From Candidatus Zixiibacteriota bacterium (GTDB lineage: Bacteria; Zixibacteria; MSB-5A5; JAABVY01): a stretch of 33,440 nucleotides of DNA. Where the stretch lies: NCBI GenBank assembly GCA_014728145.1, contig WJMC01000159.1, forward strand, positions 1 through 33,440, in the 5' to 3' direction. Position numbers and translations under genes: made by a program. Within the stretch, counting starts at the first letter, position 1. The number at the start of each line of letters is the position of its first letter. The notes beneath the pieces are model-generated. The model ran no database searches and was not told the DNA's origin. It worked only from the letters and a program-made list of their open reading frames with translations. Below are positions 2-12,145 of this stretch, piece after piece.

Positions 2-1081
2 AAATCAATTCGTTTTTATATCTGGATGGCTGTTCTGGCAGTGATAGTGGCATTACTGTTTCTGTTTCCAGTCGATTTGAAGATCAATGCTCCCATGACG
101 ATCGAACCGCTTGAGAAATTCACCATCAAGCGCACCGGCACAAGCGACTTGCAGATGATCTGGTTCAAGGGCGGACTCGAGCAGAAGACCACCAGCCGGA
201 TATTTCAATTATCGATCGCGGATTTTGCCATACTGGATATCGAACCCAGCCTGACACCCGGTACACAGGTCGACAGCGGGGACCTGCTTCTAAAGGTATC
301 CTCCGATTTCTTCAACAGCCAGCTGGAACAGACCCAGGCCGAGATAGACAAAGCACTGGCGGAATACGAACTGTTGTTATCCGACCCCAAGGCGGCCGAA
401 CTGGCCAAAGCCAAGGCGGCGCTCGAAGAGGCTCGGCTCAAGCAAATAAATATCGAAAACGAGTACCAGCGCGCCAAAAAGATGTATGAAAAAAACCTGA
501 TTTCTGAGGAAGAGTGGGAGATATTCAAGACCCAGCGTTCGGTCACAAACAAGCAGACCGAGATTGCCAAATCCGAATATGATCTCCTGCGCGAAGGCCC
601 CAAGGCGGAAGAACTGCTTAAGCAGGATGCTGAAATAGACCGCCTCAGGGCCAAGGCTCGCTACCTCAAAGAACAGATCGAGGCCTGCACGATCCGTTCT
701 CCCTTCGATGGTAAAGCTACCCTATTCGGACAGCCGGGAGAAATCATTTCGGTAGCAAAAAACTCAACAGTTGAGGTTCGGGTGCGGATTCCCGAAGACC
801 AGGTCGATATCCTTGAAGTCAGCCAGGATGTCTATGCCAGGGTAGCCGGTTTTCCGCGCGCATCGTTTCAAACTGAACTGACCAAGGTGATCGCGAGTTC
901 GCATAGAATGGATGGCAAAAACTACTTCGTGGCGGTCGGCCTGCTTTCAAATCCGAGTGGCTTGCTCAAAGACGGCATGACCGGTTATGCCAAGATTATC
1001 TGTGGCAAAACCAGTCCGATGGGGATACTGTCCAGGAAATTTGTCCGCTTTTTCAGGGTTGAATTCTGGTCATGGTGGTAG
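2..1081 (+). CDS. HlyD-family membrane fusion (periplasmic adaptor) protein, 5' end outside window
   Basis: The reading frame is open to the window edge (upstream codons read KSIRFYIW before the ATG at 26) and no Shine-Dalgarno sequence precedes that ATG, so the true start probably lies upstream. A single N-terminal membrane helix (about AVLAVIVALLFLFPV) is followed by a lipoyl-like half motif (SLTPGTQVDSGDLLLKV), a long Glu/Ala/Lys-rich coiled-coil hairpin (about residues 95-225), the returning lipoyl half (CTIRSPFDGKATLFGQPGEIIS) and a beta-barrel domain. This is the order of HlyD/RND adaptors, which bridge an inner-membrane transporter or M50-type peptidase to the periplasm. The C-terminal tail (RKFVRFFRVEFWSWW) is aromatic and basic, as in HlyD proteins paired with M50 membrane peptidases. 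That pairing is from memory and the partner gene would lie to the left. Substrate unknown. Confidence 0.8.
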   Translation, partial: KSIRFYIWMAVLAVIVALLFLFPVDLKINAPMTIEPLEKFTIKRTGTSDLQMIWFKGGLEQKTTSRIFQLSIADFAILDIEPSLTPGTQVDSGDLLLKVSSDFFNSQLEQTQAEIDKALAEYELLLSDPKAAELAKAKAALEEARLKQINIENEYQRAKKMYEKNLISEEEWEIFKTQRSVTNKQTEIAKSEYDLLREGPKAEELLKQDAEIDRLRAKARYLKEQIEACTIRSPFDGKATLFGQPGEIISVAKNSTVEVRVRIPEDQVDILEVSQDVYARVAGFPRASFQTELTKVIASSHRMDGKNYFVAVGLLSNPSGLLKDGMTGYAKIICGKTSPMGILSRKFVRFFRVEFWSWW

Positions 1082-1165: not shown

Positions 1166-1193
1166 TTGACAAGCTGTCGGTAGGTTGTATATT
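1166..1193 (+). promoter_or_regulatory. Sigma-70-type promoter of the microgene
   Basis: A perfect -35 box TTGACA (1166-1171) is separated by 16 bases from TATATT (1188-1193). An overlapping TATAAT at 1194-1199 would give a 22-base spacer and is less likely. Transcription would begin near 1200, leaving a leader of about 95 bases before the 23-codon ORF. It lies 85 bases after the stop of the HlyD-type gene, so the small unit has its own promoter. Confidence 0.65.
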
Positions 1194-1239
1194 TATAATA
1201 CTTACGAGAATGATTCTATCATTTTCCTGTTTAAACCTG

Positions 1240-1280
1240 CCATCGAAAGATGGAAATAACCGGTCATCGGAAACGACGAC
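1240..1280 (+). ncRNA. Two tandem GAAA-tetraloop hairpins in the microgene leader
   Basis: The first hairpin is CCATC-GAAA-GATGG (1240-1253, 5 bp). The second is GTCATCG-GAAA-CGACGAC (1263-1280, 7 bp stem with one A.C mismatch). They are joined by nine A-rich bases and end three bases before the AGGAGG ribosome-binding site. Both loops are GNRA tetraloops. I do not recognise a known riboswitch class. They could be a leader control element, a protein-binding site or part of a dual-function small RNA. Confidence 0.5.
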
Positions 1281-1293
1281 ATAGGAGGTTCTG

Positions 1294-1365
1294 ATGTACG
1301 AACTGTTCATCGAAGAACTGGAAGAAAAGGTTGCTCCGGTTCGCATTAGCCAGGGTGGTCAGTAG
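1294..1365 (+). CDS. 23-residue microprotein of unknown function
   Basis: The ORF begins ATG at 1294, five bases after a near-perfect AGGAGG (1283-1288), and ends at TAG 1363-1365. It is acidic at the start (MYELFIEELEEK) and ends in ISQGGQ. An in-frame TAG at 1282-1284 rules out an upstream extension. It sits in its own promoter-terminator unit. The size is like some precursor peptides (PqqA is about 23 residues), but the ExxxY motif of PqqA, a Cys/Ser-rich core and a double-glycine leader junction are all absent. Neighbours are an HlyD-type exporter (same strand) and a kinase-TPR gene (opposite strand). I do not recognise the family. It could equally be a leader peptide of a small regulatory RNA. 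Confidence 0.6.
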   Translation: MYELFIEELEEKVAPVRISQGGQ

Positions 1366-1385
1366 ACCCCCGAAATTTGACCGGT

Positions 1386-1411
1386 GAAAGCCGCCTTTAC
1401 AGGCGGCTTTC
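1386..1411 (+). terminator. Intrinsic terminator of the microgene, shared with the convergent kinase gene
   Basis: A perfect 11-bp stem (GAAAGCCGCCT / AGGCGGCTTTC) with a 4-base loop is followed by GTCTTTAT on the + strand. The stop codon of the convergent kinase gene falls in the loop, so the hairpin may serve both strands. The U-rich side favours + strand termination. Confidence 0.75.
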
Positions 1412-4400
1412 GTCTTTATGGTTCATCTTATTGACCAGGGTCGAGATTTCGCTTTTCAGGTTTTCCGCGCGCGGTTGCTTGAGAAAGCTCTGCAGATACT
1501 TCTTGTTGTCGATTTTGCGAGCCAAAACTTTCAGCACGGCCACCGCCTCCTTATAACTGATATAGGCCTCTTCATAGTCGAGCTGTTTCTGTTTAAGGTT
1601 GCCCAGCTGAAACTTGATTTTCCACTTCAGGCAAATCTGACACAGCTCATCGCTTCGCCTCAATGCTGTCTCGAAATCAGTCGCGGCTGAATCGAGTTCA
1701 CCTCGTCTCATTGCAATCATCCCCCTCAAATAAAGATACTCCGCGCGCAGTATACTGTTAACCGGATCACTCATAATCTCAGCGACTTCATCCAGGTAAT
1801 CAAGTTCGCAACCCGGCAGGCAAGCCAGGTCGGTTTTCATACGCGCAAGAGAGATTACACCTTTGAGGTTGTTAAATTCATGTTTTGCGACCACCTGCAG
1901 GCCCTCATCGATCGCCTTTTGAGCCGCCTCGAAATCATCAGCAAACTCCAATTCCGCTTCAGATTTTAAAGCTAAAGAGTTAACGATTCCGAGCGGATCG
2001 TCATTCTTGTACGAGAGTTCGAGCGTTTTTTCGAGGTACTTTGAGAATATGTCCGGCTGGTACAGGCTCAAAAACAGGCGTGAATAGTTCAGATACAACA
2101 GCACTGCGCTGCGGGGATCTTCAATATTCGCCAGGATCATTTCGGCTTCATCGAGGATCTTTTCAACTTGCACGAATTCGCCCGATTGCAACCAGACTGT
2201 TGACAGCGTTATCATGAACATCAACTGGAAAGGCTGATCCTCGAGTTCGGTCGATGTACTCAGGCCTTCCTGGGCCATGCTTTCCGCTTTCTGATAATTG
2301 CCCAGGGTCAGCTCACAGGAGGCGATATTGTCGAGGTTGAACATGATCTCACGGGTTGAATCGATATCGCGATTGATCTTGAGGGCATCGTAGAGATACT
2401 TCAAAGCCGGTTTGATCTGCCCCAGTTCATAATACGTCACACCGAGATTGTTGTAGGTGCGGGCCAGTTCGGGCAGGTCATTTATTTCTTCTTTGATCGC
2501 GATCGATCGTTTATAATAGTCGATTGTTTTAGCGTACTCATGTTGCATCACGTAACAGGAGCCGATATTGCTCAAAGTCGAGGCGATGTCTTTTTTGAGG
2601 TCGAGTTCTTCCTGGATTTTGAGCGCTTTGAAATAACTCTCAAGAGCCAGATCGATCTTGCTTCCGACCCAGTGCATATTTCCGAGATTGTTGTAGGTAT
2701 GTGAGATTTCGACCTTGTCGCCGATCTCCCGGTACAGACCGAGGGCTTTTTCGAGTGCTTTCAGGCCCCGACGGTAATCGAATCGTGATTTATAGATATC
2801 ACCAAGGTGCTTGTAAGCGGCGGCCAGGTATTCACGCCTCTCGATTTTATTTTTTAGACGCACGATCCGGGCGAAGCTCGCCAGGGCGGTATTGGTCAGG
2901 CCGAGCTTGTTCTCAATATCTCCCTTAACGTTCAAGAGCCTGGCTATATGGTTTGTGGTATCTTCATGCTCTGACTGTTTAAAAGCAATCTGAAGGCAGT
3001 TCGAAACCAGTTTGAGAGCGAAACGATACTGGTTTGATGAGAGCCTGTGTTCGACGGCTTTCAATGTCCAGCGCAGTGATTCCTGGAGGCTTTCAGCCAG
3101 CGTGTAATGACGTGCGATGTAAAGCGCTTTCTGTTCGCGAGTGAAAACCGCGGACTTCTTCACGATTTCTGCCGCTTTCATATGCAGCTTTTTCAAGGTA
3201 TCCGGATCGTTTTCGGAAAGCATCGCCACCCGCAACAGCTGATTTTTGAGACGGTAGCGGTTGTTCTTTTTTGTCAGCAAACCACTCTCTTCAAACCGCC
3301 TCAGCATCCGATCCGGTTCGTATGAGTGATCGAGTTCAAACTTGACGTAGAACTGCTCATCGAACTCGTGATTGATGACAGCCAGGCGCCGCAATGCCAT
3401 GCGTTCATCGGGCCCCAGATAATTAACCGCTTCTAAAATCTTGATGAGGATTTTATTCGACGGGCAGTAAGCTATGAAATCGGTCACATCGACCGCCCAG
3501 TGCTCGCCGTCATAACCGATAATATCGGCAGCCTGCATCTCGTTTAATATCTCGGCCAGAGTCTCGATCGAGTCGGAACTGATATCCGAAAGCTTCTCCA
3601 AAAATTCCCCGTTTACTACCTCGGGATCGAACCAGTTCTCGATCTCTGCCACAATATCGAGAGCGATTTCCCGTGCTCCCGGTGGCGAAGCCACAAGCCT
3701 CACCGACGGTTGCAGGTAAAGCCTGATCTGGTTATCAGGCTGAACAGTCGTACCGCCATCGGTCAGAAGTGTGGTATCTATCGAGACTTGACCAGCAGAT
3801 TTCCGTGCGGTAATTCTAGCAGAGGTTTTAGATTTTATGTCTTTTCTGGATATAACTTCAATATTTCGCTTCTGATACTCCGCGGTCAGAATCGTCCTGA
3901 ATGATTCAAGCACAACTTTATCACTGAAACAGTAAGAAGCATTGCAGTTTTCATGGAAATCCTGCTTGTAAAACTCTTTTGCAAGTCTAAGTGACACCGC
4001 GGTAGACAATAACTCATTAAAATCAAAGGCTGGTTCCTGTCCACCGGAAAGCTCGGCACAGGCATAAGCCAGTTGCCAGGCGTTACCGGGACGCTCCTCC
4101 GGCTTACGGCTCAACAATGCTGAGATCAGGTCCAGAAACTCCTCGGGCAGATCATGATCATCCTGTACGATTTCCGGGGCTTCCTGCTCGAGTTTGGACG
4201 ATATCACTTTGAGCGGATCGTCATCTTCGAATGGCAGCCTGCCACACACTAAAAGGTACAGCATGACTCCCAGGCTGTACATATCCGAACGGCTGTCGGC
4301 CGACTGATTGTCGAACAGTTCCGGCGCCATGAACTCGACCGTACCGGACAGCTTATGGCGCGCATTTTCAAGCGAATTGTCGAGTGCCAGGCCAAAATCC

Positions 4401-4849
4401 AGCAACTTGACCAGCAATCTGTTGGATGACTCTGCAAGCTTGACGTTCGCAGGCTTGAGATCGTTATGGAGCAGGTTGAAATGATGCAGAAACGCGATCG
4501 CCTCGGAGCACATCCGGGTGATGTCGATCAGGTGCTTGTCATCATACGCCGAAACCTGTTCATAGATATTGCTCCGGGGCAGAAGCTCCATAGTGTAATA
4601 CGGAAGGTTCTCCCGGGTGTAGCCATAATCATATGCGCAGGTCAGGTACCTGCAGTTCAGTTTCAATGACAGCAGGAATTCCTCGAAAAAAGCCTGTTCA
4701 TCAAAAGAGGTGAAATCGTCAGGAATGAAAACTTTTAGAGCTAAATCGAGATCACGCTCGCGATCGTGAACCGCGAAGACTTCTCCCCCGCCTCCGGCTC
4801 CGATTTTATTCAGAACTTCGTATCTCTCCGGCAACCTGATGGTAGTCAT
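1397..4849 (-). CDS. Ser/Thr protein kinase with winged-helix-like middle region and TPR array
   Basis: Residues 10-265 form a Hanks-type kinase: Gly-rich loop GAGGGGEVF (17-25), Lys39 in LALKVF, catalytic HNDLKPANV (128-136), DFG at 151-153, APE at 175-177. The HRD arginine is Asn, so this is a non-RD kinase, expected not to need activation-loop phosphorylation. Residues about 405-560 resemble the lid and winged helix of PknK/STAND-type kinases, but no Walker A motif is present between kinase and winged helix. About 600-1130 holds at least eight TPR-like repeats (NNLGNMHW, SNIGSCYV, NNLGVTYY). No transmembrane helix is seen, so it is cytoplasmic. Its Shine-Dalgarno (TGAGGT) overlaps the stop codon of the upstream histidine kinase gene, implying translational coupling. 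Substrates are unknown. Confidence 0.9.
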   Translation of the reverse strand: MTTIRLPERYEVLNKIGAGGGGEVFAVHDRERDLDLALKVFIPDDFTSFDEQAFFEEFLLSLKLNCRYLTCAYDYGYTRENLPYYTMELLPRSNIYEQVSAYDDKHLIDITRMCSEAIAFLHHFNLLHNDLKPANVKLAESSNRLLVKLLDFGLALDNSLENARHKLSGTVEFMAPELFDNQSADSRSDMYSLGVMLYLLVCGRLPFEDDDPLKVISSKLEQEAPEIVQDDHDLPEEFLDLISALLSRKPEERPGNAWQLAYACAELSGGQEPAFDFNELLSTAVSLRLAKEFYKQDFHENCNASYCFSDKVVLESFRTILTAEYQKRNIEVISRKDIKSKTSARITARKSAGQVSIDTTLLTDGGTTVQPDNQIRLYLQPSVRLVASPPGAREIALDIVAEIENWFDPEVVNGEFLEKLSDISSDSIETLAEILNEMQAADIIGYDGEHWAVDVTDFIAYCPSNKILIKILEAVNYLGPDERMALRRLAVINHEFDEQFYVKFELDHSYEPDRMLRRFEESGLLTKKNNRYRLKNQLLRVAMLSENDPDTLKKLHMKAAEIVKKSAVFTREQKALYIARHYTLAESLQESLRWTLKAVEHRLSSNQYRFALKLVSNCLQIAFKQSEHEDTTNHIARLLNVKGDIENKLGLTNTALASFARIVRLKNKIERREYLAAAYKHLGDIYKSRFDYRRGLKALEKALGLYREIGDKVEISHTYNNLGNMHWVGSKIDLALESYFKALKIQEELDLKKDIASTLSNIGSCYVMQHEYAKTIDYYKRSIAIKEEINDLPELARTYNNLGVTYYELGQIKPALKYLYDALKINRDIDSTREIMFNLDNIASCELTLGNYQKAESMAQEGLSTSTELEDQPFQLMFMITLSTVWLQSGEFVQVEKILDEAEMILANIEDPRSAVLLYLNYSRLFLSLYQPDIFSKYLEKTLELSYKNDDPLGIVNSLALKSEAELEFADDFEAAQKAIDEGLQVVAKHEFNNLKGVISLARMKTDLACLPGCELDYLDEVAEIMSDPVNSILRAEYLYLRGMIAMRRGELDSAATDFETALRRSDELCQICLKWKIKFQLGNLKQKQLDYEEAYISYKEAVAVLKVLARKIDNKKYLQSFLKQPRAENLKSEISTLVNKMNHKDESRL

Positions 4850-4859
4850 GACCGCGACC

Positions 4860-6662
4860 TCAGGTTTCCGGTTGCTTTACCGGCAGTACTATCTTGAAGA
4901 CCGTCTCTTCGGGCATGCTTTCGATTGAGAGCTGGCCGTGATGGCTTTCGATGATCCTGCGACAATTGCCCAGCCCCAACCCATGACCGCTTTCCTTGGT
5001 GGTAAACCCCTGCTCGAAGATTCTATCTTTATGCTTAACTTCGATACCCGGGCCGTTGTCGACGATTTCCATCACCACGGTTTCCGCCTGATCCCCGGCA
5101 ACTCTGTTGTAAGCCCTGATTTTAATCCGGCCATTCTCGATACCGGCTCCGTTAATAGCTTCCATTGAGTTATATATGCCGTTGATCAAAACCTGCTGGA
5201 TCTGGCCGACATCGATCTCGATCGGCGGAATATCGTGAGAGATCTGCAGTTCGAAGTTTATGCGGGAGAAGTTTTCATGCGTTTTAATCGAGAACAGGAT
5301 ATCCTCGATCAGCTTGCGGAGGTCGTATGAGACCGGGTCCTTTTCCAGCTTGGAGAAGTCCATCAAACCGTCGGTGAAACGTTTGATCTTGGAGATGCTT
5401 TCGACAATCGCTTCTGCGTTGCGGTCGATCTTGTCATAGGCCTGTTTTTTGACATTGCGCAAAAGCAGTTCGGCGCTGTTGGATATTATAGCCAGGTAGT
5501 TGTTGAGTTCATGGCCGATCGAGGCCGCCATCTCACCCTTTGCCACCAGTTTCTCCGAAAGCATGACGTAATTTTCCAGGACTACTTTCTCGGTCGTGTC
5601 CTCGATCACGATAATCAGGCCACTGCTGTTCTGGGGTTCGATTTCCAGAGGCGAAATCTTGAGGTTGAGAACTTTTTCCTCGTCATCGACCTGGTAATAG
5701 AAACGGCTTTCTTCGAATGCACGGCCGGTCGAGACGACATGCAGAAGATGCTTTTTCCAGAATTCCACCTGGTCCTCGGCGGGTATTTCAAAAAATGATC
5801 TCCCACTGCTCTGCATCCTGAATCCGCTGTTTTTGCGTTCAGCCGGGGTGAGTATATCGAAGGCGGCATCATTTAAGCTGGTTACTTCGAATTTATCGTT
5901 TACGACAACGATTCCAACCGGTGTCTTATTGACTACATTTTCATTGTAGCGCTTCAGGCGCAGGAGGTTTTCATAGAGCTTGGCGTTTTCGATTGCGATC
6001 GCGGCCTGCTCTGTAAACAGCTCGAACAGGTACAGGTCGGAGCGCAAAAACACCTTCGCTTCGCTGGAGTTGTCGAGGTAGACCACGCCGATGATCTTCT
6101 CTTTGATCTTGAGCGGAACACACATAATTGAGCGCAAATTCAATTCCGCAATCGACTTCTGCTTGGAATATTTTTCATCCGCCTGCGCGTCGGAAGTATA
6201 GATCGATTCCCCGGTTTTAGCCACTTTGTTGGCGATCGAGTTCGATATCTTGAAATCTTCACCCATCAGCTTATCACCGGAGATATTGTGAACGGTCTTG
6301 AACTGTAATTCACCGGACTCATCGAGAAGCATCAAAAAGCCCCGTTCGGCTTTTAAGAGTTCAATCGCGTGTTTCATTACTTTCTGCAGGATATTTTCAA
6401 GGACGAGCGATGAGTTGATCGCCTGCGAAATCTCCAGCACGGCCTTGAGATCGGTCGAGCGAGTGGTTGCCTGCGAGGATTTCTGTGCCAGGGCAGGGTA
6501 TTCATCCTCAATCGACGAGAGCCCGTCTTCCATCTCGGAAAGGATATCGAGGTCGGGTTCGGTCGGTTGCGATGATTTTTTTGACGCTTTTTTGTACTTG
6601 TTCGGAATTATTATCTTGTCAGTAGACTGAAATTTAGAATTGTTACTTTTTTTTATAGGCAT
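4860..6662 (-). CDS. Soluble GAF-PAS sensor histidine kinase
   Basis: A TTG lies four codons further upstream at 6674; I chose the ATG at 6662, although neither has a strong ribosome-binding site. A Lys-rich disordered N-terminus is followed by a GAF domain (about 70-228), a PAS domain (about 240-364, TPVGIVVVNDKFEVTSLNDAA), a HisKA dimerisation helix with H-box GEMAASIGHELNNYL (His384 from this start) and a HATPase domain with N-box, VDNGPGIE and GHGLGLGNC. There is no membrane segment and no receiver domain, so it senses an intracellular signal and must pass phosphate elsewhere. The kinase-TPR gene follows after 10 bases with coupled translation, so the two probably act in one pathway. The gene upstream is 110 bases away, so an internal promoter is possible, but I found no convincing one. 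Confidence 0.88.
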   Translation of the reverse strand: MPIKKSNNSKFQSTDKIIIPNKYKKASKKSSQPTEPDLDILSEMEDGLSSIEDEYPALAQKSSQATTRSTDLKAVLEISQAINSSLVLENILQKVMKHAIELLKAERGFLMLLDESGELQFKTVHNISGDKLMGEDFKISNSIANKVAKTGESIYTSDAQADEKYSKQKSIAELNLRSIMCVPLKIKEKIIGVVYLDNSSEAKVFLRSDLYLFELFTEQAAIAIENAKLYENLLRLKRYNENVVNKTPVGIVVVNDKFEVTSLNDAAFDILTPAERKNSGFRMQSSGRSFFEIPAEDQVEFWKKHLLHVVSTGRAFEESRFYYQVDDEEKVLNLKISPLEIEPQNSSGLIIVIEDTTEKVVLENYVMLSEKLVAKGEMAASIGHELNNYLAIISNSAELLLRNVKKQAYDKIDRNAEAIVESISKIKRFTDGLMDFSKLEKDPVSYDLRKLIEDILFSIKTHENFSRINFELQISHDIPPIEIDVGQIQQVLINGIYNSMEAINGAGIENGRIKIRAYNRVAGDQAETVVMEIVDNGPGIEVKHKDRIFEQGFTTKESGHGLGLGNCRRIIESHHGQLSIESMPEETVFKIVLPVKQPET

Positions 6663-6772
6663 ACTTAATCCCAAGCCCGATTTTTATATCATTATTCTTA
6701 TCGGAAGAGTTACAAAAAAGGTTAACCGCAACGAAATTAAAGTCTTACAAAAACAGCCTTATTTTACGATGA

Positions 6773-7450
6773 TTAACGGGGCTTGATAATCGGGAGTTTG
6801 CCTGGTTTGAACGTAAAGGTACTGAATTCTCTTTTTTCGGGACCCATCCGGGTCATATCGAGCACCTGCTCGAACGCCTTTTCTGGGAGGTTTGACGCCT
6901 CGGGTTGCTGTTCGGAATCTGAACGCTCCATCCCGAGATACCATTGACCGGCACGGCTCAACTCGGCTGCGGTCAGCCTGCGTTGCTTCAATGTGAAACT
7001 GAGATAGTAGTGGTCGTCATATTCGAGGTTGTTGATATGCTTGCTGGCCAGAATCATCTGCTCATCAATCTTATCCACGATCCTGAAGAAGTCCTTATGA
7101 CTGCTTTCAGTGATTTCATGGTTAAAATCGAGCAGGTAGAGCTTGAAACGTGCTCCGAAACTTTGAAATTCAATATGGATTTGGGCCTGATACTTTTTCA
7201 GGGTCGGATCGATCCAGAGCGGGTAAGATTTTTTCAGATGAGCCTCGATTTCGAGATGGAGCGGGTAACCCTCTCGAATTGAACTGACGAGCTCCGATGT
7301 AAACATGCCGGCCAGCTTCAGATCAGCAGTGACAATGCTGTCATAGACGAAGATATCGCACTTGAGCTCTTCACCCGCAAGTAGAGGTGCCATAATAACC
7401 AGCAGGCAGATAAAGTGTAGCGCGATCTGTAGGCTGAATCCAATTTTCAT
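6773..7450 (-). CDS. DUF4390-like exported protein
   Basis: An N-terminal signal peptide (LALHFICLLVIMAPLLAG type hydrophobic run to about residue 26) precedes a beta-rich domain whose motif REGYPLHLEIEAHLKKSYPL, followed by LW/D residues and a repeated aromatic strand, resembles DUF4390 proteins. From memory, DUF4390 genes of proteobacteria often sit with ntrY/ntrX-like sensor-regulator pairs, and the same pairing occurs here (NtrYX-like genes at 9337-12145). The gene starts 12 bases after the stop of the Omp85-like gene with little ribosome-binding sequence, so it is probably cotranscribed from the sigma-54 promoter at 9217-9232. The family call rests on a pattern read by eye. The function is unknown; a periplasmic envelope role is inferred. 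Confidence 0.55.
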   Translation of the reverse strand: MKIGFSLQIALHFICLLVIMAPLLAGEELKCDIFVYDSIVTADLKLAGMFTSELVSSIREGYPLHLEIEAHLKKSYPLWIDPTLKKYQAQIHIEFQSFGARFKLYLLDFNHEITESSHKDFFRIVDKIDEQMILASKHINNLEYDDHYYLSFTLKQRRLTAAELSRAGQWYLGMERSDSEQQPEASNLPEKAFEQVLDMTRMGPEKREFSTFTFKPGKLPIIKPR

Positions 7451-7462
7451 TGTATCAATTGT

Positions 7463-9187
7463 TTAAAATGCGCCGGAAAATGTCAGCCAGAATTTGATAT
7501 CCGCGTCGGAATCATCCAGAGCTCGAGCCAGCTCAAGCCTCAGGCCGGGCCCCAGTTTGACAGCCAGGCCTATATCGGATTTGAATTCGCCATCGGAAAA
7601 AATCGCATCGTCCTGACCGACCACCTTGCCGATATCGAAAAACAACAGTCCCGTCACGGTCTGGTTGAACTTAAGCAGATATTCAATATTCGCCAGAGCC
7701 ATCTGCTCACCATAGAAGACCTTGTGGTCATATCCGCGCAGGGTGTTCAGACCGCCCAGGAAGAATTTCTTAAAAAGCGGGAGGCGCTGATCAGAATTAC
7801 CGTACATCACCCGCGCATTAATCGCCAGGTAGCGGTTGAACGGCTGGTAGCGTGTCAAATCCACTATCCAGCGAGTGTAGCTTAAGTCACCTTCGAGACC
7901 GTCACCCGCCTTCTCGTATTTGACCTGCCCCAGCCATCCGATCTGAAGCGTGCGATACTGGGAACGCTTGTCGAATGTATAGCTGACATTGATTTTAGAG
8001 AGCTTGCTGTCGAAATCATCGCGATAGGTTTGTTTCATATCATACGGCAGGGTGCTGAAATTGCCCCGGAATTCCTTGGAACCGAACATGCTCCAGAGCT
8101 TTGGATGGGAGTCCATCCAGTCCAGGTCATCGTAGCTGTAAGAGATATCGAATGAATTGTACTCGCCCAGATAGAGCTTCAGGCCGATCGTGCCGCCCTC
8201 TTTTTCGTAGTAATCACGAAAGTCCTCATGCACCAACAGCGTGTATACCAAATTTTCGTTTTTACTTACAATCCAGTCATCCTCCGTGGCCGTTTCGCGG
8301 TACAGCCTGCCGTAAGGTTCGATTGCATAACTGTCGAATATCTTCTGCGCGATATCGAGATGATAATGCAGTCTCTCGGCTTCGAAAGCGTAGCCGGCAC
8401 CGACCGAAATCTTCGGGAAGATTTCGTCCGGATCCTCGTATTCGAAGTAGGGATAGATCTCGAGCCCGTCGACCCGGTTGTAATCGAGCGAGAGTTTGAG
8501 CTCGAACTGGTCGTAATAACCGCGCCTTGAACCGAATTTTCGTCCACCCTCCTGCCAGCCTTCATCGGAGACAATCTGACCGTAAACCTGCGAGTTATCA
8601 TGGCGAAACACCTTTCCGCAGATCGTAATCACATGACCGCGCACAACCGCCTGCGGATGCAGAGTAACATCGCCGAAGAAACTGATCATGTTCTTCGAAA
8701 CTTCGCCATAAACCTCTGCATCTCCGCCGACTACGAGAGCATCTCCGCGCACAAACTGACGTTCATCTATAACCATGGTAGCAAAAGTTTTTAGCAGGTT
8801 TCGCGGTACCCGAAAATTGGGGGGCTCAGCGCGGATGATGTAACTCAGTTTGACATGCCCGCGCGAGATCATCTCGGTCTCATGGCGCTTGAGCAGATCG
8901 TAATTGATTTTCCTATCACCCCAAACAATACCCTCAGTTGAGAAAATCAGGCGGTCGCCGATAGAGATTTGCCCTTCTTGCCTGACAACCTCGTCGCAGT
9001 AGAAATCTATCTGTTCACGCCGGCCCTGGTAATCCAGGATCATGCTGATTTCGTCCTTATGGTAATCGATGATGAGACGATTTGTCGGCTGGTTTTCCTC
9101 CTCGTAACCGCGCAAGGTTTCCCCGCAGATGAAGATCACAGCCAGGACCGTCAATACTATCATTATCAGCGATTTTTCCTTTAACAC
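7463..9187 (-). CDS. Outer-membrane Omp85/D15-type beta-barrel with bactofilin-like N-terminal strand stack
   Basis: The start is GTG at 9187, supported by AGGAGG five bases upstream. A signal peptide (about 1-27) leads to a short domain and then a repetitive stretch (about 136-205) with short beta-turn units (RGDALVVGGDAEVYGEV, GDVTLHPQAVVRGHV), typical of bactofilin or hexapeptide-like beta-helices. The C-terminal 350 residues are alternating aromatic/charged strands with the Omp85 hallmark GGLNTLRGYDHKVFYGEQ and NIEYLLKF, FFDIGKV near the end. POTRA domains as in BamA are not evident, so it is not BamA itself. It is likely an outer-membrane assembly or translocation pore, or an envelope-anchoring protein. 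It is preceded by a consensus -24/-12 promoter and the NtrYX-like regulator pair. Confidence 0.75.
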   Translation of the reverse strand: MLKEKSLIMIVLTVLAVIFICGETLRGYEEENQPTNRLIIDYHKDEISMILDYQGRREQIDFYCDEVVRQEGQISIGDRLIFSTEGIVWGDRKINYDLLKRHETEMISRGHVKLSYIIRAEPPNFRVPRNLLKTFATMVIDERQFVRGDALVVGGDAEVYGEVSKNMISFFGDVTLHPQAVVRGHVITICGKVFRHDNSQVYGQIVSDEGWQEGGRKFGSRRGYYDQFELKLSLDYNRVDGLEIYPYFEYEDPDEIFPKISVGAGYAFEAERLHYHLDIAQKIFDSYAIEPYGRLYRETATEDDWIVSKNENLVYTLLVHEDFRDYYEKEGGTIGLKLYLGEYNSFDISYSYDDLDWMDSHPKLWSMFGSKEFRGNFSTLPYDMKQTYRDDFDSKLSKINVSYTFDKRSQYRTLQIGWLGQVKYEKAGDGLEGDLSYTRWIVDLTRYQPFNRYLAINARVMYGNSDQRLPLFKKFFLGGLNTLRGYDHKVFYGEQMALANIEYLLKFNQTVTGLLFFDIGKVVGQDDAIFSDGEFKSDIGLAVKLGPGLRLELARALDDSDADIKFWLTFSGAF

Positions 9188-9216
9188 GATTTCCTCCTTT
9201 GTTTGCCCTTTACATG

Positions 9217-9232
9217 AGCAAACTGTGTACCA
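9217..9232 (-). promoter_or_regulatory. Sigma-54 (-24/-12) promoter of the Omp85-like/DUF4390-like operon
   Basis: Read on the minus strand the site is TGGTACACAGTTTGCT, a full match to TGGYACR-N4-TTGCW with GG and GC exactly 10 bases apart (GG at 9231-9230, GC at 9219-9218). It lies 30 bases before the GTG start and immediately downstream of a gene for a sigma-54-dependent activator, which makes a chance match unlikely. Confidence 0.8.
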
Positions 9233-9284
9233 ACACGCAATAGCCTCTAAAAGCCCTGTTTCAAAGGATTTATCGACGTGAACA

Positions 9285-9299
9285 ACATCGTTCCGATGT
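9285..9299 (-). promoter_or_regulatory. Candidate upstream activator site (inverted repeat)
   Basis: ACATCG-TTC-CGATGT is a perfect 6-bp inverted repeat centred about 60 bases upstream of the -24 element, a typical place for an NtrC-class activator dimer. On the + strand it is followed by GTTTTTT, so a weak terminator is an alternative, but no + strand gene leads into it. Confidence 0.4.
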
Positions 9300-9336
9300 G
9301 TTTTTTACAATTTATGGTCGGCTGTCGTTGTCTTTT

Positions 9337-10698
9337 TTACAACAATTCATGTTTTTTCAGTTTTTTATAGAGATTGCCCCGATCCACCTGGAGCCGACGC
9401 GCCAGCTCGGCCACATTCCCCTCTACCTGATTAAGATTCACTGCCAGGAAGTTACGCTCGAAGTCATCCACAGTCCTGGTCAGCAGGTTCTTGCCGGATG
9501 ATTTCAGCGGTTTACTATCGTCGGAAAATGAAATCTCGCCGGCAATCAGTTTCCGCGCAGTCTCGATGTCGACATCGTCCCTGCCTGACAGAAAAAACAG
9601 GCGCTCGCAGTAATTTTTCAATTCACGAACATTGCCGGGCCAGTCACCGGCGCAGAGCAATTCATTGATTTCAGGAGGGTAGTTCTTTTCAAACCGGTTG
9701 TTTTTCTCCCTGAGACGATTGAAGAAATGATCGAACAACAATGGGATGTCCTCCTTGCGCTCCCTGAGGGACGGGACATGAACCGGTATGGTATTGATGC
9801 GGTAGAACAGGTCAGCTCGAAAATTTCCCTTTTCGACCTCGGCTCCAAGATCTTTCCCGCTGATCGAGATAGTGAAAACATCGACCACAACTGGCTTTCT
9901 GCCTCCCAGGGGTTCAACTTCATTTGTTTCCATAACACGTAACAGCTTGCTCTGGAGACTCAGCGGTAATTCAGCGATCTCATCCAGCACCAGGCTCCCG
10001 CTGTCTGCCAGCTCGAATTTGCCCGGTTTGTCGGTATTGGCCCCGGTAAAAGCACCTTTTTTATGGCCGAAAAGCTCCGACTCGGCCAAATCCGCTGGTA
10101 TGGCCGCGCAATTGAGCTTTACCATCGGCTTGCCCGCACGCCTCGAACGGTAATGAATCTGGTTGGCAACAAGTTCTTTCCCGGTACCGGTCTCCCCCCA
10201 GATCAGCACCCGGCTCCCGGTCTCGGCCACCATGGCGATCTGGCGCTTGAGTTCGGCAATTGAAGCGCTCCGCCCGATGATCGCATACTTATCTATAAAT
10301 CTCTGGCGGAAACTGCGGTTTTCAGCTTTGATCCGGTACTTGTCAAGACTGCTGCGAACTGAAGCTAACAGGCGTCCAATATCCGGCGGTTTTTCCAGAA
10401 AATCGGAGGCACCGAGTTTGACCGAATCTGCCGCCTGTTGCAGGCTGGACTCCCCAGAGAGCATAATCACCTCCGGATGCTCCGGCATCTCAATGACCTG
10501 CCCGAGAATTTCGATACCGTCGGGCGAGGGCATGTTTATGTCCAACAATACCAGTTGAAAATCGTCATTTTTGATTGTACCCACTGCGGATGCGGAATCG
10601 CTCAGGCAGGTTACCTGATATTTTTCCGTTTCAAGGAGACGACCGAGTTGCCTGGCAAAAGCACGGTCATCATCAATCAGTAGAATTTTTCCAGTCAT
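9337..10698 (-). CDS. Sigma-54-dependent response regulator, NtrC/NtrX family
   Basis: The receiver domain (1-120) has the acidic pocket at 9-11, phospho-acceptor Asp53 (LVLLDINMP) and Lys103 in FLEKPP. The AAA+ domain (about 140-365) has Walker A GETGTGKE (168-175), the sigma-54-contacting GAFTGA loop (215-220) and Walker B LVLDEI (236-241). A Fis-type helix-turn-helix ends the protein (about 410-453, GNVAELARRLQVDRGNLYKKL). All residues needed for phosphorylation-controlled activation of sigma-54 RNA polymerase are present. The ATG lies inside the 3' end of the sensor kinase gene (26-base overlap), the usual arrangement for a cognate pair. The consensus -24/-12 site 105 bases after its stop is the obvious target. 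Confidence 0.95.
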   Translation of the reverse strand: MTGKILLIDDDRAFARQLGRLLETEKYQVTCLSDSASAVGTIKNDDFQLVLLDINMPSPDGIEILGQVIEMPEHPEVIMLSGESSLQQAADSVKLGASDFLEKPPDIGRLLASVRSSLDKYRIKAENRSFRQRFIDKYAIIGRSASIAELKRQIAMVAETGSRVLIWGETGTGKELVANQIHYRSRRAGKPMVKLNCAAIPADLAESELFGHKKGAFTGANTDKPGKFELADSGSLVLDEIAELPLSLQSKLLRVMETNEVEPLGGRKPVVVDVFTISISGKDLGAEVEKGNFRADLFYRINTIPVHVPSLRERKEDIPLLFDHFFNRLREKNNRFEKNYPPEINELLCAGDWPGNVRELKNYCERLFFLSGRDDVDIETARKLIAGEISFSDDSKPLKSSGKNLLTRTVDDFERNFLAVNLNQVEGNVAELARRLQVDRGNLYKKLKKHELL

Positions 10699-12145
10699 GT
10701 AAATCCGGGAAAATGATTCTAACAGTGGTTCCTTGCTGGTCGGAATCGAGTTCCAGCTCAGCCTCCAGCGCCTGGGCGAACTTCATGGCAATCGGAAGCC
10801 CCAGGCCGGTTCCCCGTGACTTGGTGGTGTAATAAGGTTGCCAGATTTTCATCATGGTAACATCCGGTATCCCCGGACCGTTGTCGGTCACCTCGATCAC
10901 CGTCTCATCATCATCGCGACGACCGGTCACACTGACCTTACCGGCATCCTCAATCGCTTCACAAGCGTTTTTTACCAGGTTGATCATTATGCCGCGCAGG
11001 ATATCGTAGTCGGTTTCAACATACAATTCACCAGGTATATCGATCTGCTTTTCGATATTTTCGCAGTCTCGACCGCCCAGTTTCACAGCATCCTCGGCAA
11101 CATTTTTAACGTTGACCGGCGCTTTGCGAATCTCTGGCGAGCGTGAAAACATCGAGAAATCAGAGGCGATATCCTCCAGGCGTGAAATCTCGGCCCGGAT
11201 GGTTTTAAGCTCTGCTTCGGATTCAGCAACCTTTTCATGCGCCGACAGATTGTGCAGTGCGATCTTGACCGGGCTGAGGATGTTTTTGATTCCATGCGCG
11301 ATAACCCGGGCGGTATTCTTCCAGGAAGACTCGATCTCGGCATTTACCAGCTGACGGGTGCGGTTTTCCAGCTCGGAAGACATATAGTTGAACGAGTTTA
11401 CAAGCATACCGAGTTCATCTTCATTGTTGTAATTGACCTTCTTACCCCAATGTCCCTTGGCGATATCGAAAGCGGCCAGGGAAAGATTATTAATCGGTTT
11501 GATAAGTGAATTAGCCCACCAGCGCGCGACGTAGATCAGAAATGTCAGATAAATCACGATCACGCTCAGCCAGATCAGCCATGCGAAATCGCCTCCGGAG
11601 GTCAGCACAAACATCTTCAGACGCGAATACTCAGTCTTGGCTTTCAACACCTCGGCGGTACGGTTGGCGAAATCCTGCGGTAAATATTGTCCCACAACCA
11701 AGATCGGCGACTCGCTAAATCCCGGTTGGAGTAAGATCCTCTGGTAGACCATGATCGAGCCTTCAAAACTGATGATCTCCGGAAAGCTTCCCGCTCGCCC
11801 CAGTGCTTCCTGGATAAACAAGTCGTTGTGTTTTTCATTGGAAAGAGCCTGAAGCCAGAGTGTGTCGTTTTCAGAAAGAAATATAATTAAATCGAAATGG
11901 CGCAGGTCATCAGTGGTGATCGAGTCAGAAGCCAGGATGCTGACTAAATTGATGAAACGCAGGCGATATAGCTCCAGCGAGTTTTCGACCATGTATTCGG
12001 CATTGGTGATCGTCTTTTCGAAACCGGGCGAGATCACCTTGTCGATACCGCGGTTAAAGATGTAAACTGAGAACAACGACAATGCCAGAAACGGAATAAA
12101 CGAGAGCAATAGCAATCTGACAAAAAACTTAGTCTTAATCTGCAT
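10673..12145 (-). CDS. NtrY-like membrane sensor histidine kinase
   Basis: Two transmembrane helices (about 9-29 and 187-208) flank a periplasmic sensor region of roughly 155 residues. A HAMP linker (about 205-260) follows, then an H-box WKNTARVIAHGIKNILSPVKIAL with His284, then a HATPase domain (MINLVKNACEAI, VTDNGPGIP, GTGLGLPIAM). The H-box layout matches NtrY/AtoS-type kinases, whose usual form is AHEIKNPLTP. Here the Glu after the phospho-accepting His is Gly285 and the Pro after Asn288 is Ile. The partner is the overlapping NtrC-type regulator. The gene overlaps the Nudix gene by 11 bases, so it is part of the same transcript. Confidence 0.92.
   Translation of the reverse strand: MQIKTKFFVRLLLLSFIPFLALSLFSVYIFNRGIDKVISPGFEKTITNAEYMVENSLELYRLRFINLVSILASDSITTDDLRHFDLIIFLSENDTLWLQALSNEKHNDLFIQEALGRAGSFPEIISFEGSIMVYQRILLQPGFSESPILVVGQYLPQDFANRTAEVLKAKTEYSRLKMFVLTSGGDFAWLIWLSVIVIYLTFLIYVARWWANSLIKPINNLSLAAFDIAKGHWGKKVNYNNEDELGMLVNSFNYMSSELENRTRQLVNAEIESSWKNTARVIAHGIKNILSPVKIALHNLSAHEKVAESEAELKTIRAEISRLEDIASDFSMFSRSPEIRKAPVNVKNVAEDAVKLGGRDCENIEKQIDIPGELYVETDYDILRGIMINLVKNACEAIEDAGKVSVTGRRDDDETVIEVTDNGPGIPDVTMMKIWQPYYTTKSRGTGLGLPIAMKFAQALEAELELDSDQQGTTVRIIFPDLHDWKNSTD

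Follow-up and report, generated by a model that had tools for sequence, protein, structure and literature searches.

A conserved 23-codon gene of Candidatus Zixiibacteriota and the RRE–M50 protease–HlyD fusion protein predicted to cleave its product and export the C-terminal peptide

The window, that is, the whole 33,440-nucleotide stretch of Candidatus Zixiibacteriota DNA analyzed here, contains near its start a 23-codon open reading frame (ORF) placed between the end of a gene for an HlyD-type exporter and a convergent kinase gene, and equipped with a promoter, a Shine-Dalgarno sequence, and a terminator of its own. This arrangement raises the question of whether the ORF is a gene at all and, if so, whether it acts through an RNA, through the act of its translation, or through a peptide that is handled by the proteins encoded next to it. 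The features on which the answer depends are as follows.

2–1081, plus strand: HlyD-type adaptor, forming the C-terminal part of an RRE–M50 protease–HlyD fusion protein
1166–1193, plus strand: sigma-70-type promoter TTGACA-16-TATATT, also found upstream of relatives
1240–1253, plus strand: 5′-untranslated hairpin 1, CCATC-GAAA-GATGG, its structure preserved by compensatory changes across families f1, f2, and f6
1259–1266, plus strand: box ACCGGTCA, complementary to 1378–1385, clade-specific
about 1263–1280, plus strand: imperfect GAAA hairpin 2, for which relatives show no conservation
1283–1288, plus strand: Shine-Dalgarno sequence AGGAGG, conserved, five bases before the ATG at 1294
1294–1365, plus strand: gene for the precursor peptide, 23 codons and a stop codon, product MYELFIEELEEKVAPVRISQGGQ, supported by profile searches and codon-level selection
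1294–1338, plus strand: predicted leader MYELFIEELEEKVAP with the recognition motif ELEEKVAP, which has its precedent in daptides
1339–1362, plus strand: predicted mature peptide VRISQGGQ
1378–1385, plus strand: box TGACCGGT, complementary to 1259–1266, clade-specific
1386–1411, plus strand: 11-bp terminator hairpin that extends into the 3′ end of the convergent kinase gene
1397–4849, minus strand: Ser/Thr protein kinase with a C-terminal TPR region, 1150 residues, no transmembrane segment
4860–6674, minus strand: GAF-domain histidine kinase, which follows in the conserved convergent block

The ORF is a real gene, as the original prediction had proposed, and is conserved across almost the whole phylum Candidatus Zixiibacteriota. 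When 98 related genomes were searched at the nucleotide level, matches fell mainly on the ribosome-binding site and the ORF, and the matched regions encode the same peptide, each with its own Shine-Dalgarno sequence. With a 14-sequence profile, the peptide was found in 102 of the 133 genomes of the class, and with a 57-sequence profile in 105 of the 133 genomes of the phylum, class and phylum being represented in the data set by the same 133 genomes; all genomes compared are metagenome-assembled genomes (MAGs). In nearly all of the 110 peptide members, the start codon is preceded at normal spacing by a good Shine-Dalgarno sequence. Moreover, pairwise changes are dominated by the third codon position (1715, 1123, and 5443 changes at positions 1, 2, and 3, respectively, the pairs being non-independent), and the pN/pS ratio, computed on similarly non-independent pairs, is 0.19 in the leader, indicating strong purifying selection, versus 0.48 in the tail, which is also constrained. 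The low ratio anticipated for a coding ORF was thus found in the leader. Among 57 diverse members, the Leu, Glu, and Pro residues of the leader motif are invariant and the Ala is nearly so, and the peptides show the conserved leader and the more variable C-terminal core of RRE-dependent RiPP-like precursors. The gene is mostly single copy per Zixibacterial genome. Peptides from Zixibacteria and other phyla gave no match at a meaningful level in Pfam and NCBIfam, in agreement with the initial impression that they belong to no recognized family, and the 23-residue peptide had no match in the phage records searched. In the Zixibacterial genus g52, precursor genes occur in tandem, four in one locus (L058 9039–10135) and seven in another (L059 8606–10315), with conserved leaders and SRWGTD/SRYGAE-type tails; a kinase-TPR gene is not found next to them.

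The transcription and translation signals originally read around the ORF are all present. The promoter is composed of TTGACA (1166–1171), a 16-nt spacer, and TATATT (1188–1193), agreeing with the consensus at 11 of 12 positions; the region holds 3 promoter-like sites, where shuffled sequences gave 0.7, and such sites are enriched upstream of relatives, a sigma-70-like site at p ≤ 0.05 against simple shuffles lying within the 220 upstream bases in 38% of 107 homologous loci. The terminator hairpin is perfect over its 11 bp and has a weak T tract. The stop codon of the convergent gene (1397–1399, minus strand) sits in its loop, and the terminator is common to both genes.

The exporter gene upstream proved to encode only part of a larger protein, the N terminus of which had been hidden from the original prediction by a contig break. 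Within this genome, the N-terminal part is carried by contig C136, the end of which is identical with window bases 1–141, and rebuilding across this 141-base overlap gave a product of ~770 residues composed of an RRE/PqqD-like domain, an M50 intramembrane protease, and an HlyD adaptor. The protease half best matched the daptide intramembrane metalloprotease NF041824 (E 4e-70; 237 bits, below the cut-off of 300), followed by a weaker match to the YydH/LiaK protease NF058609 (E 1e-11); the HExxH motif reads HELAH in this genome's copy, and PF02163 scores above its cut-off in a homologue, which assigns the enzyme to Peptidase family M50. A search with a sequence profile in the PDB did not find the RRE, which was found via the predicted fold: AlphaFold models of the fusion protein contain an N-terminal β3-α3 domain that matched 5v1u, 6jx3, and 5sxy (probability 1.00, with modest E values from 1.5e-3), the former two showing RRE domains together with leader peptides (TbiB1, a lasso B1 protein), the last one being PqqD. 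Judging from this modeled domain, the fusion protein would be a processing enzyme with a leader-binding RRE fold, of the broad RRE-dependent RiPP-like kind. The protease is fused to the export adaptor in all complete copies. No partner of the HlyD part, whether an energized transporter or an outer-membrane channel, was identified, and no pump gene is conserved alongside. Past the folded adaptor domain, the extreme C-terminal sequence (F/I)RVEFWSWW is nearly invariant (L061 6555–8864 and homologues).

Peptide and fusion genes co-occur within the phylum. The fusion gene ends directly upstream of the peptide gene in 53 of 99 loci, and in about half of the Zixibacterial loci it is not adjacent. 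Both genes were found in 98 of the 133 genomes, the peptide gene only in 7, the fusion gene only in 4, and neither in 24 (Fisher P = 2.5e-16, a value that ignores phylogeny and MAG incompleteness). Family f18 and similar families keep both genes though unlinked, indicating that the association goes beyond mere adjacency. At several Zixibacterial loci with relocated fusion genes, no second peptide was found within 3 kb; linkage is thus not required.

The pairing also extends to other phyla. Homologues of the fusion protein were found in MAGs assigned in their records to Acidobacteria, Verrucomicrobia, Planctomycetota, Eisenbacteria, Gemmatimonadetes, Rokubacteria, Bacteroidetes, and Aminicenantes. 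Beside the fusion gene, and nearly always upstream of it, short ORFs with an LExRIAP leader are present in 27 of 28 such loci, the motif occurring 52 times in 138 kb of flanks versus 0.3 times expected from codon shuffling. Their tails are mostly longer and varied, rich in Gly, Asn, Pro, and Ser, with several precursors of different tails per cluster, and no tailoring enzyme is found among the families most often seen beside the fusion genes there. Some tail types, for example LGYEGQPGNQGG, GALHNNPxNPNNNN...AIPEGPAG, and NPGNNNPPxNNTNNPGNEGTGGxVSTG, are shared across phyla (loci L229, L230, L237, L241, L242, L243, L247, L251, and L254), which suggests horizontal transfer of whole cassettes. 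Two Aminicenantes-type loci have MAKKSTKKVVKLNVERLEKRIAPTRAAIAMG in three to four near-identical tandem copies on the minus strand, oriented convergently with the fusion gene (L235 5400–5670 and L238 5410–5800).

The reading that we prefer, with a probability of about 0.75, is that the microgene encodes a precursor from which the fusion protein cleaves and exports the C-terminal peptide. The first 15 residues would serve as a leader, to which the PqqD-like RRE domain at the N terminus of the fusion protein would bind via the ELExxxAP motif; cleavage after Ala-Pro by the M50 intramembrane protease domain would remove this leader, and the HlyD-type adaptor would then pass the C-terminal peptide out of the cell. 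From the daptide-like protease and the daptide-type leader motif ELEEKVAP, the product in the window is predicted to be VRISQGGQ. The suggestion that the peptide is secreted or modified and belongs with the HlyD-type exporter has fared in two ways. Its secreted, exporter-linked part is well supported by the conservation across the phylum, by the co-occurrence of the two genes, by the leader-binding domain and protease in the same polypeptide as the adaptor, and by a leader motif with biochemical precedent, whereas a modified product stays conjectural, as no tailoring enzyme recurs nearby.

What the peptide might do is hinted at by the gene on the other side. A kinase-TPR gene is convergent with the peptide gene and within 800 bp downstream of it in 88 of 99 loci, which makes a role in signaling plausible; its catalytic motifs are intact, and its lack of a transmembrane segment was judged by hydropathy. 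Genus g52 and RBG-1 have no adjacent kinase, one genome (G098) has the kinase but no peptide, its contig ending at the kinase gene, and several loci without the expected neighbor are close to contig ends. The phyletic profile of the kinase was drawn with a strict E-value cut, which misses divergent kinases and fragments. Taken as a lead from synteny, the mature Zixibacterial peptide may be a signal, the level of which is read directly or indirectly by the kinase-TPR protein and the neighboring histidine kinase, a tentative proposal to which we give somewhat worse than even odds. The complete picture, in which a cross-phylum pathway free of tailoring enzymes and carried out by one polypeptide on short peptides with LExxIAP leaders yields in Zixibacteria an octapeptide-sized pheromone sensed by the kinase-TPR protein, appears rather unlikely. 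The block of genes that recurs phylum-wide beside the peptide gene (window 1397–12145, minus strand) encodes the Ser/Thr kinase-TPR protein, the GAF histidine kinase, a DUF4390 protein, an Omp85-like protein, an NtrC-type regulator, and a histidine kinase; genes farther out differ between genomes.

The RNA upstream of the ORF had been described as carrying two GAAA hairpins; both are in the sequence, the second in imperfect form. In all 12 members tested from families f1, f2, and f6, hairpin 1 persists despite changed base pairs, and it is visible by eye in a 13th member (L051); its retention covers the order of the window and family f6. The covariation predicted for both hairpins was thus found for this one, whereas hairpin 2 (GTCATCG-GAAA-CGACGAC), with one A·C mismatch on the plus strand, was not seen in the aligned relatives and was rejected as a functional element for want of conservation. 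An inverted pair of boxes flanking the ORF, ACCGGTCA and TGACCGGT, had been overlooked and is present in the same clade as hairpin 1 only: the CCGGT box after hairpin 1 pairs with the box past the stop codon in most of the f1, f2, and f6 members tested, and the members with a CCGGT box belong to these families. As a general feature, the pairing was rejected, being found at p ≤ 0.05 in only 12 of 109 members. Because it was not seen elsewhere in the phylum, the flanking-box and hairpin element is an added, clade-specific one. An Rfam scan of the window gave no match. In relatives, the two boxes co-vary, the pair ACCGGTCA/TGACCGGT changing to AACCGGTTA/TAACCGGTT, for which RNA pairing and a protein-binding palindrome are the candidate explanations.

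These RNA features would be central if the locus worked as a small RNA, dual-function or regulatory, with the 5′ structure and end-pairing boxes outweighing the peptide. The compensatory changes in the 5′ hairpin and the boxes pairing across the ORF speak for such an RNA, but they are limited to three families, whereas the ORF is phylum-wide and under selection at the amino-acid level. A purely RNA function is contradicted by this codon-level selection across the phylum, and although an added 5′ RNA element does exist in the window's clade, the small RNA is a very improbable explanation of the locus. The proposal that the ORF acts as a leader peptide or attenuator for some gene downstream, which a short ORF followed by a terminator might bring to mind, has a negligible probability: in the window, as in nearly all loci, the gene that comes next is convergent, so that no co-directional gene lies past the terminator. 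Gene orientation decisively excludes it, and the amino-acid sequence is conserved as well.

Two other explanations accept the peptide and differ in its fate. In one of them, the same precursor, protease, and exporter would deliver a true RiPP, that is, a chemically modified product or an antimicrobial or surface peptide, with tailoring enzymes encoded elsewhere and the kinase neighborhood being regulatory or incidental. RRE domains and proteases of this type are indeed parts of RiPP pathways, and the multi-precursor clusters with different tails in other phyla and the tandem copies in genus g52 fit such a product; we nevertheless regard it as unlikely, since no recurrent tailoring enzyme stands beside the genes in other phyla or among the conserved neighbors in 20 Zixibacterial contexts, and a constrained tail in a mostly single-copy gene is unlike typical antimicrobial clusters. 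In the other, the peptide would stay in the cell as a regulatory microprotein that binds the kinase-TPR protein directly, and the fusion protein would be a regulated protease destroying it. Linkage to the kinase-TPR gene (88/99) is tighter than adjacency to the fusion gene (53/99), and the kinase has no transmembrane segment, in favor of this role. It is made quite improbable by the constant fusion of the protease to an export adaptor and by the recurrence of the same leader in other phyla, where this kinase was not seen among nearby genes.

On the preferred reading of a cleaved and exported peptide, the fusion protein appears to be one that would unite leader recognition, cleavage, and export in a single polypeptide. 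That homologous fusion genes of many environmental phyla stand next to ORFs with this leader points to a family of exported peptides that is both large and undescribed. No description of RRE/M50/HlyD systems, of a Zixibacterial RiPP, or of PqqD-M50 systems was found in the open-access papers searched, which is not proof of novelty; the peptide-export system, occurring also in several other phyla, is apparently undescribed. The prediction is a sharp one, a cut after Ala-Pro and a product of eight residues, and the linked Ser/Thr kinase opens peptide signaling in candidate phyla to direct testing.

Among known systems, the closest are the daptides, in which an RRE fused to the site-2 protease MpaP/DapP removes the leader in an RRE-dependent manner, the precursors MpaA/DapA carry the leader motif ELExMEAP and are cleaved after ELExxxxx, and the reported distribution comprises Actinomycetota, Bacillota, and one Pseudomonadota cluster (PMC10036551, PMC12338566). 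Here, too, short precursor ORFs lie close to a gene that joins an RRE to an M50 protease, and ELEEKVAP has the same length, spacing, and Ala-Pro end as ELExMEAP, with Met-Glu replaced by Lys/Arg-Ile/Val. The peptides are nevertheless not daptides, because the invariant C-terminal Thr is present in 0 of the 110 members listed (that of the window ends in Gln), and no oxidative decarboxylase, aminotransferase, or methyltransferase is found among the conserved neighbors in the 20 Zixibacterial contexts or the commonest neighbors elsewhere; moreover, the protease is here fused to an HlyD adaptor, and the phyla lie outside the reported daptide range. YydF/LiaK-type epipeptide systems share an M50-type maturation protease and a short peptide substrate, but no radical SAM epimerase was seen in the conserved neighborhood here, and RRE and HlyD parts are fused to the protease. 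With the HlyD/MacA/EmrA adaptors, the fusion protein has in common a C-terminal half that matches the MacA and EmrA folds, whereas the usual partners of these adaptors are ABC, MFS, or RND pumps rather than a fused protease. In RRNPP-type signaling, a short peptide is cut from a small precursor, and the receptors are TPR proteins. The candidate receiver in Zixibacteria differs in being a Ser/Thr kinase, with the two genes convergent and a leader of the RRE type instead of a Sec signal; the likeness, which concerns the way of working only, is that a cytosolic TPR protein is encoded beside a small peptide gene.
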